In this document: one piece after another, positions 11,309 through 13,890 of the stretch | Numbering within the stretch: the stretch's first letter is position 1 | Layout: each line of letters starts with the position of its first letter | Assembly (NCBI GenBank): GCA_024641015.1 | Contig: JAHEDU010000004.1 | Location: 1-46,920, forward strand | Reading direction: 5' to 3' | DNA length: 46,920 nucleotides | Source: Micrococcales bacterium | Lineage (GTDB): Bacteria > Actinomycetota > Actinomycetes > Actinomycetales > Microbacteriaceae | The notes under the pieces: model-generated | What the model was told of the DNA's origin: nothing | What the model saw: the letters and a program-made list of their open reading frames with translations, nothing else | Databases searched by the model: none | Made by a program: the position numbers and the translations under genes

Positions 11309-12352
11309 ATGTCGCGCGTATTGAACATTGCGGTCATCCCCGGTGACGGAATTGGTCCCGAGGTCACCGCTGAAGCGCTCAAAGTGCTTCGCGCCGCAAT
11401 CGGGTCTGCCGCCGAAGTTCGAGCGACCGAATACACGCTCGGCGCTGCTCACTACCTTTCAACGGGCGAGATTCTGTCGGATGCCACCCTCGACGCACTT
11501 GCGACACACGACGCGATTTTGTTCGGAGCAGTGGGCGGAGACCCTCGCGATGAGCGCCTCGCCGGCGGAATCATCGAGCGCGGCTTGCTGCTCAAGCTGC
11601 GCTTCGCGTTCGACCACTACGTGAATTACCGACCGACCACCCTGTTCCCTGGAGTCGAGAGCCCGCTCGCCGACCCGGGTTCGGTCGATTTCGTCATCGT
11701 GCGCGAAGGCACCGAAGGTCCCTACGTCGGAAATGGCGGGGTCCTTCGCCGCGGAACACCTCACGAGATCGCGACCGAGTCGTCCGTCAACACCGCCCAC
11801 GGTGTCGAGCGCGTTGTGCGCTTCGCATTCGACGCTGCGATGGCGCGCGACAAGCACCTGACGCTCGTGCACAAGACGAACGTGCTGACGTTTGCCGGGT
11901 CGCTGTGGCAGCGCACGGTTGACGCCATCGCCACCGAATTCCCCGCCGTCACGGTCGACTACTTGCACATCGACGCGGCCACCATCTTCATGGTCACCGA
12001 TCCGTCGCGTTTTGACGTCATCGTCACCGACAACCTCTTTGGTGACATCCTCACCGACCTCGCCGGCGCAATCGGCGGTGGAATCGGTTTGGCCGCGAGC
12101 GGAAACCTAAACCCCGACCGCACGTTCCCCTCAATGTTCGAGCCCGTTCACGGGTCGGCACCCGACATCGCCGGTCAGCAGAAGGCGGACCCCACCGCCG
12201 CGATCCTGTCGGCGGCACTTCTTCTCGAGCACAACGGATTCCCCGAACAGGCCGCCGAAATTCACACCGCAGTCCTTGCCGACCTTGCTTCTCGCGACGG
12301 CGCCAAGCGCCCCACCGCCGCCGTCGGCGACGCCATCGTCGCCCGCCTCTAG
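11309..12352 (+). CDS. leuB: 3-isopropylmalate dehydrogenase
   Basis: A 347-residue NAD-dependent beta-decarboxylating dehydrogenase for leucine synthesis. The N-terminal GDGIGPEV motif, the substrate-loop arginines ([12 protein letters not shown]), the VHKTNVL segment and the metal-binding [10 protein letters not shown] block are all present. AAGGAAG precedes the ATG. It is the last gene of the serA-leuB unit. Confidence 0.96.
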
Positions 12353-12357
12353 AACGG

Positions 12358-12395
12358 AACGGCCCCGACGGCTTTCGCCGCCGAGACCGCCCGTT
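12358..12395. terminator. Weak hairpin after leuB
   Basis: AACGG (358-362 of the 12 kb block) pairs with CCGTT (391-395), with an inner CGACGGC/GCCGCCG stem carrying one mismatch. There is no T tract on either strand. It may slow transcription from leuB or from the opposite-strand peptide. Confidence 0.35.
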
Positions 12396-12399
12396 GGTC

Positions 12400-12486
12400 C
12401 TAGGGCGCGAGCATCGTGATCTCGATTGTCAGAATCACAATCTTGATCACCACCAGCACCAGGTCAACGATGGAATGCTTATCCAT
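12400..12486 (-). CDS. 28-residue hydrophobic peptide
   Basis: A short reading frame of 28 residues with ATG at 12486 and a good ribosome site (AGAAGGA, 4 bases upstream). After MDKHS the rest is one hydrophobic helix of Ile, Val and Leu interrupted by one Lys and one Glu, ending in TMLAP. Fifteen of 28 residues are Ile, Val or Leu. It could be a single-pass membrane peptide. The composition resembles ilv leader peptides, but the gene it points towards is convergent leuB, so classic attenuation in cis does not fit. It lies alone in the leuB-ilvE gap. Confidence 0.45.
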   Translation of the reverse strand: MDKHSIVDLVLVVIKIVILTIEITMLAP

Positions 12487-12549
12487 CTCGTCCTTCTCTC
12501 CACAGGCGCAGACCGTGAAAAGACGTCGAACCGGAACCCTTGACAACTC

Positions 12550-12578
12550 TGGAAATCCAGGTGGCCAAGGTTTATACT
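12550..12578 (+). promoter_or_regulatory. Promoter of the candidate intergenic RNA
   Basis: TATACT at 12573-12578 is the closest match to the -10 consensus among the promoters I found. It has a TGGAAA at 12550-12555, 17 bp upstream. The predicted start is near 12585. Confidence 0.5.
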
Positions 12579-12584
12579 TGGAGA

Positions 12585-12674
12585 GATTCATCGCTCCGGA
12601 AGCTTGTTTTCCGGTTCGACGCCTCAACAAGCGTCAAATAGGGTCCCTGGTTCCAGCCAGGGGCCTTATTTTTT
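12585..12674 (+). ncRNA. Candidate structured small RNA
   Basis: A region of about 90 nt with its own promoter-like element, no usable reading frame and three consecutive hairpins. Hairpin 1 is CCGGAA/TTCCGG (596-601 with 609-614, 7-nt loop). Hairpin 2 is GACGC/GCGTC (618-622 with 631-635, 8-nt loop). Hairpin 3 is a 15-bp stem ending in six T. I do not recognise it as tRNA, SRP RNA, 6S or 6C RNA. It stops about 115 bp before the ilvE promoter, so it appears to be a free RNA rather than an ilvE leader. Last three digits refer to positions 12xxx. Confidence 0.5.
12636..12674. terminator. Strong intrinsic terminator of the small RNA
   Basis: The stem pairs 12636-12650 with 12657-12671 (core GGTCCCTGG/CCAGGGGCC with two G-T wobbles, extended by an A/T-rich base) around a 6-nt loop. 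Six T at 12669-12674 follow. The A tract on the other side makes it potentially bidirectional. Confidence 0.85.
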
Positions 12675-12789
12675 GCCCGACACAACACGCTGCGCGTTGA
12701 TGTCATGCGAGGTCGAGTGTGGCGGAGTGACCGCAACCGGTGGTGTGAATTGTGAAATCTGGGCATAACCCGCGGCGTCTCGCGGTTGA
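12675..12789. other. Intergenic stretch before ilvE
   Basis: No reading frame is supported. A short inverted repeat CCGCG-GCGTCT-CGCGG at about 12769-12784 overlaps the position where the -35 of the ilvE promoter would fall and could be an operator. Confidence 0.3.
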
Positions 12790-12801
12790 TAGTGTGGAGC
12801 C
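12790..12801 (+). promoter_or_regulatory. Leaderless-type promoter of ilvE
   Basis: TAGTGT (12790-12795), GGAGCC, then ATG at 12802. Confidence 0.6.
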
Positions 12802-13890
12802 ATGACTGGGCTCGATTTCCACCGACACCTCAATCTGCAGGCGAAGTCGCCGAGTGAGCGCGACGCGATTCTTGCAAACCCCGGGTTCGTTGACCACTTC
12901 ACCGACCACATGGTGGACATTTGCTGGTCCGAAACCGGCGGGTGGCACCGCCCCCGAATCCAGGCGTACGGACCGATTGAACTCGATCCCGCAGCGGCAG
13001 TCCTGCATTACGGCCAGGAGATCTTCGAGGGTATGAAGGCCTTCCGTCATGCCGACGGAAGCATCTGGACGTTCCGCCCGGACGCCAACGCACGTCGCTT
13101 GAACGCCAGTGCCGTCCGCATGGCGCTTCCCGAACTTCCGGTCGAATACTTCCTTGACAGCCTCAAAGCGCTCATCTCGGTTGACGCCGAGTGGGTGCCG
13201 TCGTCGCCCGACATGAGCCTGTACATTCGACCTTTCATGTTCGCGAAGGAGGCGTTCCTCGGAGTTCGCCCCGCGAAGAAGGTCGCGTACTACGTCATCG
13301 CTGGCCCTGCTGGTTCATATTTCAAGGGCGGCGTCGCCCCCGTCTCCATCTGGCTGTCCGAACACTATTCGCGCGCGGGTAAGGGTGGAACCGGTGCGGC
13401 GAAGACCGGCGGAAACTACGCGGCATCGCTCGTCGCGCAGAACGAGGCGTACGCGAACGGTTGCCAGCAGGTCCTGTTCCTCGATTCGGTCGAGGGAAAG
13501 TACCTCGAAGAGCTCGGCGGCATGAACGTCGTTCTCGTCTACAAGGACGGGTCGATTGTGACGCCGTTGTCCGACTCGATCCTTCCCGGTATCACGCGTG
13601 ACTCGATCCTTCAACTTGCCGAAGAGCGCGGTCACACGGTGACCCGCCGACCCGTGTCGATCGACGAGTGGCGCGAGGGGGCAGCGAACGGTGACATCGT
13701 CGAGGCGTTCGCCTGTGGCACCGCTGCGGTCGTCACGCCGATCGGCCAGGTCAAAGCTAAGGACTTCACAATCGGTTCGGCCGACGCGGAACCCGGTGAA
13801 CTGACGATGTCACTTCGCCAAGAGCTCACCGACATTCAGTACGGTCGCCGCGAGGACACCCACGGCTGGATGTACCGTCTCGATGCTTGA
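12802..13890 (+). CDS. ilvE: Branched-chain amino acid aminotransferase
   Basis: A 362-residue fold-type IV PLP enzyme that transaminates the keto acids of valine, leucine and isoleucine, the last step of all three pathways. The PLP lysine is K201 in AAKTGGNYAASL. The EIFEGMKAF, YIRPFMFA and EAFACGTAAVVTPIG blocks are typical of BCAT. Length matches the long eukaryote/actinobacterial form. The start is fixed by the TAGTGT hexamer 6 bp upstream. It overlaps the next membrane-protein gene by 8 bp. Confidence 0.95.
   Translation: MTGLDFHRHLNLQAKSPSERDAILANPGFVDHFTDHMVDICWSETGGWHRPRIQAYGPIELDPAAAVLHYGQEIFEGMKAFRHADGSIWTFRPDANARRLNASAVRMALPELPVEYFLDSLKALISVDAEWVPSSPDMSLYIRPFMFAKEAFLGVRPAKKVAYYVIAGPAGSYFKGGVAPVSIWLSEHYSRAGKGGTGAAKTGGNYAASLVAQNEAYANGCQQVLFLDSVEGKYLEELGGMNVVLVYKDGSIVTPLSDSILPGITRDSILQLAEERGHTVTRRPVSIDEWREGAANGDIVEAFACGTAAVVTPIGQVKAKDFTIGSADAEPGELTMSLRQELTDIQYGRREDTHGWMYRLDA

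Follow-up and report, generated by a model that had tools for sequence, protein, structure and literature searches.

Features between leuB and ilvE

The window, a 46,920-nt stretch of contig JAHEDU010000004.1 from a Micrococcales bacterium of the family Microbacteriaceae (GCA_024641015.1), holds leuB and ilvE at a distance of 452 nt (449 nt without the stop codon). The interval carries a candidate small RNA gene on the plus strand and, on the minus strand, a short open reading frame (12486-12400) with GGAGAGAAGGACGAG before it and a hairpin after it (Table 1). An earlier note had proposed a 90-nt non-coding RNA in this gap, with a TATACT promoter, three successive hairpins and a terminator. 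Promoter and terminator are both present on the plus strand, and a scan of 12300-12850 returned one promoter-like site against 0.1 expected and one terminator-like site against 0.4 expected. Two of the three hairpins proved solid; the third, GGAG/CTCC, is weaker (Table 1). The same segment, 12580-12597, is a palindrome directly after the small-RNA -10, whose symmetry tends to persist across related modules while its sequence changes; among 30 modules its structure was stronger on the peptide strand in 19 and on the small-RNA strand in 9.

Table 1. Positions in the window of the features between leuB and ilvE (SD, Shine-Dalgarno sequence; P-stem, long-range stem in the leader of the peptide mRNA).
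Feature	Position	Strand	Basis or remark
Inserted module, approximate extent	12353..12778	.	leuB-ilvE gap comparison with congeners
3' hairpin of peptide mRNA	12353..12395	-	terminator-like, without T run; 12-bp covarying stem
Hydrophobic 28-aa peptide MDKHSIVDLVLVVIKIVILTIEITMLAP, candidate membrane toxin	12403..12486, stop 12400-12402	-	family alignments A2, A5
SD GGAGAGAAGGA	12491-12501	-	upstream of 28-aa ORF
Predicted SD-sequestering hairpin, anti-SD UCUUUUCAC with GUGGAGAGA	12495..12523	-	fold and family covariation
P-stem 3' arm	12521..12536	-	shares 12521-12523 with SD hairpin, 12516-12523 when the stem extends
Internal leader hairpin HPi, approximate limits	12538..12570	-	folds better on the peptide strand, 29 to 0 of 30
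Small-RNA promoter TGGAAA-17-TATACT	12550..12578	+	TATACT at 12573-12578, TGGAAA 17 nt upstream
Weak hairpin GGAG/CTCC	12580-12597	+	overlaps hairpin 1; begins 5' of likely start site
Putative antisense small RNA	12584..12675	+	92 nt; start site placed from the -10
Hairpin 1 CCGGAA/TTCCGG	12596..12614	+	94.0% of cells paired
P-stem 5' arm	12609..12624	-	within stretch antisense to small RNA
Hairpin 2 GACGC/GCGTC	12618..12635	+	96.5% of cells paired
Intrinsic terminator	12636..12674	+	15-16 bp stem 12636-12671, T6 12669-12674; 99.0% of counted cells paired
Putative 5' hairpin HPu	12679..12704	-	no strand preference, 15 to 14 of 30
Putative -10 of peptide mRNA, CACACT	12716..12721	-	presumed from NANA[AC]T pattern

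The 92-nt RNA 12584-12675 folds at -41.5 kcal/mol, whereas dinucleotide shuffles reach -22.8 +/- 3.2 and none of 200 does as well (z -5.9); the terminator supplies most of this signal (z -5.8), the 54-nt 5' part alone giving z -2.35 (5 of 200). The proposal of a separate RNA of about 90 nt is upheld by this fold and by homologous copies elsewhere that keep the stems. Comparison of the window with Rfam yielded no family at gathering score and nine sub-threshold matches, all far below it, in agreement with the earlier failure to assign the RNA to a known class. Reading a 94-aa plus-strand ORF as an Ile-rich leader peptide was rejected, as the frame continues beyond the terminator.

Within the genus of the window, leuB was found in 11 of 15 genomes, its own included. 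In each of the ten others, leuB and ilvE share a contig and their matched ends are 40-76 nt apart; the 452 nt seen here therefore point to an insertion of about 400 nt. The insert leaves the ilvE promoter intact, and its G+C content is lower than that of the flanks. Immediately ahead of the ilvE start, the 10 congeners retain an element resembling TTGATAGTGTGG, with some variation. The ilvE gene appears leaderless, a -10-like TAGTGT (12791-12796) lying 5 nt before the ATG (12791-12802 together). The terminator of the small RNA precedes this -10-like site and the segment is absent from all ten congeners, which bears out the view that it does not serve as an ilvE leader. On the sequence evidence, the RNA is probably discrete, terminated, some 90 nt long and regulatory. 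In the four stretches of another genus, g11, for which flanking ORFs were listed, the neighbours of the related module are genes other than leuB and ilvE, and its location between these two genes is, by sequence comparison, incidental. Three modules of that genus (L312, L313 and L315) adjoin a gene that we take to be purD-like, and one of them lies near a probable ROK-type regulator. The purD-like neighbour in three modules suggests that the insertion site may recur across genomes.

Related modules and the minus-strand peptide

Searches with DNA, peptide and RNA differed in what they recovered. Among 398 genomes of the family, the DNA search gave the window's own copy and one 31-nt match only, which was rejected as a module copy as it falls in a gene read as yidC-like, and the initial peptide search gave the own copy only. 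Short DNA matches in congeners were discarded as well, the 20 fetched stretches having them inside open frames of at least 117 aa; no tRNA was found in these stretches or in the window, and plasmid and phage DNA contributed one 27-nt and one 26-nt match only. A covariance model of the small RNA alone matched 29 of the 398 genomes at E <=0.05, own included. Its four best non-own matches belong to genus g11, and all four have a related peptide at the corresponding position on the other strand; of the 10 stretches fetched from this first RNA-model search, these were the 4 with a peptide, and 6 (L211-L216) were without. The existence of homologous copies with conserved stems elsewhere indicates that the small RNA is more than a chance structure.

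Of 60 g11 genomes searched with a peptide profile built from the four g11 copies and the own copy, 18 gave a match at E <=1, and in 12 the value was below 1e-5. Several copies of the module occur in many of the g11 carriers, and in 4 of the 18 there are pairs 396-402 nt apart. Besides the own genome and two of g11, the profile gave weak matches inside longer frames in three of the 398 family genomes and, besides the own, one such match in 238 genomes of the order. A peptide DNA pattern was found in 13 stretches of genome_contigs, in MAG records. The 76-aa open frame containing the peptide, used as a query, retrieved 193 genome_contigs and 19 viral_contigs stretches, none of which was confirmed. 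In viral sequences a 15-nt pattern occurred in at least 120 stretches, and two peptide patterns in 31, none with a similar peptide (the nearest was a 26-aa hydrophobic ORF in L280) and none with the small RNA.

Thirty modules were aligned: of 34 peptide-profile rows, 30 had a locus, from which the decayed G423:C5 was removed and to which the window copy was added. Seven weak modules (E 0.015-0.22) were kept because the small RNA adjoins them; G422:C58 (E 0.28, containing a stop) was not counted. The peptide, not the RNA, was the first route to 25 of the 30, and the modules are related, so that counts across them are not independent. An improved RNA model, R2, was built from these 30, its matches to them being not independent either; it found 1 of 15 genomes in the genus of the window (the own) and 18 of 48 in g11, 15 below 1e-8 and for the most part at training-set loci, with one weak match among the 31 viral stretches (L266, E 0.056). 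Strong matches outside its training set were G430:C26 (two), G438:C8:8870, G439:C272, G422:C73:73 and G411:C5:34528.

The peptides of this family are 27-28 aa long, with a best 19-residue Kyte-Doolittle mean of 2.3-3.0, which fits the size of type I toxins (usually <60 aa), and charged residues lie within the predicted helix. The profile matches the window copy at E 7.6e-12, a value to be read with that copy as part of the profile. The window peptide has a net charge of -1 and the C-terminus AP, its relatives ending in R or K. The coding sequence suggests purifying selection: mean pN is 0.28 and mean pS 0.46, and pN is the lower of the two in 214 of 218 pairs, including 19 of 19 that involve the window copy. 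At a limit of E 1, the 28 peptides searched had no match in NCBIfam or PADLOC, matched only GvpK in Pfam (2 members, best E 0.075) and four unnamed families in PHROGs (one member each, best E 0.027); PDB sequences gave none up to E 10. A search of phages with the peptide also came back empty.

The small RNA is present, in one case cut by the contig end, at 33 of 33 checkable peptide copies, namely the 30 aligned modules, G445:C87:11653, G411:C5:34371 (end changed) and G422:C73:3397; among these last three, profile rows without a locus, the RNA is present in the first two and it is G422:C73:3397 that is cut. The RNA model further led to G439:C272, where the peptide is likewise present. Three small-RNA copies (two in G430:C26, and G438:C8:8870) have lost the start or body of the peptide, and two of these share one breakpoint, leaving two events. 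A bias towards RNA without peptide is what the decay of a toxin-antitoxin pair would be expected to produce, the numbers being small. In the sequences themselves, the peptide is deleted or replaced next to an intact RNA at L309:357-768 and L310:371-470 (G430:C26, G438:C8). G423:C5 (L244) holds a lone decayed peptide with a changed extended end, without the RNA.

Paired structure and a proposed switch

Across the modules (alignment A3) the small-RNA -10, TATACT and its variants, is kept, and no conserved -35 was recognised. Compensatory change in the stems, which the earlier note had named as a check, is evident: the 18 pairs of hairpin 1, hairpin 2 and the terminator are formed in 96.8% of cells, and 35 cells carry a double change against 8.3 in shuffled alignments (n = 30 modules). 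The peptide mRNA has covarying elements of its own in the 30 modules, the SD hairpin and the 12-bp 3' hairpin, the latter with z -5.1 on the minus strand versus -0.9 on the plus. On alignment A6 the SD hairpin is 86.8% paired, a slide of +1 giving 73.1% but a marginally better covariation score (0.300 versus 0.293), and its count of pairs with a double change was matched in 113 of 500 shuffles. The mRNA is accordingly predicted to carry an SD-sequestering structure that covaries, less clearly on A6. This transcript would run for about 355 nt on the minus strand from a start near 12709. A NANA[AC]T hexamer stands upstream of HPu in 29 of 30 modules, 0.26 being expected per segment, for a pattern chosen post hoc and in related modules; no -35 was recognised upstream of the candidate -10. 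A motif resembling CTGTTTATAAC occurs upstream of HPu and the putative mRNA promoter in many g11 modules (e.g. L217-L246) and may be an operator; it is palindromic in G411:C46:366 (CTGTTTATAACTCAAACAG) and was not seen in the window copy.

Since G.U pairs turn into A.C mismatches on the opposite strand, folding both strands gives a hint of which one is transcribed. In the 30 modules the small-RNA strand was the stronger for hairpin 1 and the terminator (26 to 4 each) and for hairpin 2 (29 to 1). The peptide strand was favoured by HPi in 29 modules and the opposite one in none, by the coding-region hairpins in 28 against 2, and by the 3' hairpin in all 30; taken in isolation, the SD segment was slightly stronger on the non-peptide strand (18 to 11). 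Judged by such tests, both the small RNA and the peptide mRNA look like real structured transcripts. The segments 12521-12536 and 12609-12624 form an inverted repeat of 16 bp, 94% complementary with 72 nt between the arms, and both arms change together across modules. As a stem (the P-stem) they are 94.4% paired, with 38 double-change cells versus 10.3 shuffled and at most 56% pairing in slid versions; less distinctive were the 8 pairs that show a double change, a number attained in 20 of 500 shuffles, and further pair types (142 of 500). Imperfect positions in the arms (columns 46-61, 27 distinct arm pairs) amount to G.U in 50 cells when read on the peptide strand, 24 of them from one conserved column, and in 4 when read on the RNA strand; the two columns flanking the P-stem show G.U on the RNA strand, 16 to 1.

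From the G.U asymmetry and the covarying P-stem we infer a peptide mRNA that spans the small-RNA gene and to whose leader the small RNA would be antisense; strand tests and P-stem together place the gene within the leader, which would imply full complementarity. The best reading of the sequences is that the small RNA would act as a cis-antisense regulator of the leader of the 28-aa peptide mRNA. A regulatory RNA is probable, as had been supposed, with as partner this minus-strand ORF, which the earlier note had missed, and not the branched-chain genes. Direct binding of the RNA to the SD region found no support in a swap test, in which cognate pairs did no better than swapped ones (p 0.14).

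In the proposed mechanism the leader would form the P-stem. Its 3' arm has 3 nt in common with the anti-SD for the 16-bp core in the window copy, and 8 nt when extended, and with the P-stem formed the SD would be more open. An RNA of about 90 nt, made from the opposite strand inside the leader, would be antisense to the P-stem 5' arm; by binding it, the RNA would free the 3' arm and let the anti-SD close the SD hairpin, so that the peptide would not be made. The mechanism would explain why the small RNA carries a near-copy of the P-stem 3' arm, since each would pair with the 5' arm. With the antisense target forced unpaired, predicted SD accessibility fell in 23 and rose in 1 of the 30 modules (means 0.27 to 0.17; 0.28 to 0.06 in the window copy), the shift being small in many copies. 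Blocking the P 5' arm alone lowered it in 25 and raised it in 1, the remainder of the target in 13 and 8, and the 3' hairpin, as a control, in 8 and 10; in the window copy this control lowered it equally, from 0.28 to 0.04. Folded over 12355-12730, the free mRNA of the window copy forms the P-stem, with 19 pairs, and lacks the SD hairpin, and the blocked mRNA forms the SD hairpin and lacks the P-stem; with slightly altered fold ends, both are present in the free mRNA, the SD hairpin being shortened a little.

We consider it likely, from comparative and modelled evidence, that the locus is a type I toxin-antitoxin-like module and that it works by antisense-induced translational attenuation. Its predicted anatomy works like that of a type I pair, of which it would be a candidate member. 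Comparison of the copies supports homology, covarying stems in both RNAs, the strand assignment of the mRNA stems and purifying selection on the peptide, and it is promoters, transcripts, the direction of the switch and toxicity that we infer.

The inverted repeat itself could be taken for a phase-variable switch, in which a recombinase inverts the promoter between the 16-bp arms; the arms do bracket the TATACT promoter, 72 nt apart, but the -10 points to the small RNA in 30 of 30 modules, 25 of them found first via the peptide, and an A/G difference between the arms, corresponding to a G.U pair in the mRNA, is retained in 24 of the 27 distinct arm pairs, so that this reading is scarcely credible. 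A stand-alone trans-acting RNA for branched-chain amino acid metabolism, a role the earlier note had thought plausible from the neighbouring leuB and ilvE, would also account for the RNA having its own promoter and terminator. We regard it as very improbable, given the short gap of 40-76 nt with no such RNA in 10 of 10 congeners, the other neighbours in four g11 stretches and the coupling of the RNA to an opposite-strand peptide mRNA.

A distinctly unlikely alternative keeps the antisense pair and gives the peptide another function, that of a non-toxic small membrane regulator (binding, for example, a transporter or kinase) whose level the RNA only tunes. The same sequence evidence applies to it, toxicity being a presumed property, and charged residues within the helix would suit a regulatory partner too; patchy distribution, multiple copies and tandem duplication nevertheless fit a toxin-antitoxin system better, as does the finding, in small numbers, of RNA without peptide and never of an intact peptide without RNA. 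It is also conceivable, if somewhat doubtful, that the same module works mainly through a duplex cleaved by ribonuclease or through blocking of a ribosome standby site, a variant of the attenuation reading and compatible with it. An mRNA crossing the RNA gene would offer complementarity over about 90 nt, the SD shift is small in several copies and equalled by the control block in the window copy, and standby control is described for tisB (PMC11228461). Against this variant, the near-identity of the small RNA to the P 3' arm and the overlap of P-stem and anti-SD are conserved, and simple cleavage needs neither. Attenuation through release of the anti-SD remains the preferred reading.

Comparison with known type I systems

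TisB/IstR-1, ZorO/OrzO, DinQ/AgrB and ShoB/OhsC are enterobacterial type I pairs in which the RNA pairs via a short complementary block. In its predicted arrangement the module resembles them: all combine a short hydrophobic helix with internal charged residues, an independently transcribed and terminated small RNA encoded on the opposite strand, and a structured leader. It differs in that the RNA appears to lie wholly within the leader, in its phylum and in being unmatched by family-level profile searches. In the countertranscript attenuation that controls replication of plasmids of the pT181 and pIP501 type, an antisense RNA captures an arm of a leader stem and a transcription terminator closes; arm capture would likewise close another hairpin in the module, there a terminator and here, as proposed, the SD hairpin.

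In length, the 28-aa peptide is close to TisB (29 aa; PMC9860968) and ZorO (29 aa; PMC6669753). A 2025 paper restricts the type I pairs identified before it to Proteobacteria, Firmicutes and Tenericutes, and offers the first cyanobacterial candidate (PMC12390103). Among the open-access titles and abstract openings listed, a body of literature from which subscription journals are mostly absent, none named an actinobacterial type I pair. That the module represents a new type I-like family of Actinomycetota (Microbacteriaceae), whose antitoxin RNA would act through a translational attenuator, mimicking one arm of a long-range stem in the toxin mRNA, binding the arm across from it and so setting an anti-SD free, is a tentative proposal to which we give slightly less than an even chance. 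If true, it would extend this kind of system to small-genome freshwater actinobacteria, where it is hardly known, and would make available some 30 naturally varied copies of a simple antisense-driven anti-SD switch. It also illustrates how inspection of the complementary strand can expose the partner gene of an orphan small RNA.

The closest parallels in mechanism come from systems whose leaders refold. For timP/TimR of Salmonella, two mutually exclusive leader folds are proposed, one of them translated, with a small RNA that undoes the active fold (PMC11228461). As predicted for the module, the SD there lies in a stable stem-loop and the small RNA reverses the active fold; timP uses a pseudoknot between two stem-loops, whereas the module would use a long-range stem arm that overlaps the anti-SD and is mimicked by the small RNA. 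The aapA/IsoA (Helicobacter) and hok/Sok systems share with its predicted design anti-SD hairpins, long-range translational control and an antisense RNA, but in these, 5'-3' long-distance pairing silences the full mRNA until processing (PMC6733600). Like the module, msoT1/msoA1 of Microcystis is a candidate type I pair found by sequence beyond the classical phyla; its antitoxin is predicted to target the last part of the coding region together with the 3' UTR, unlike the small RNA described here, whose presumed target is the leader (PMC12390103).
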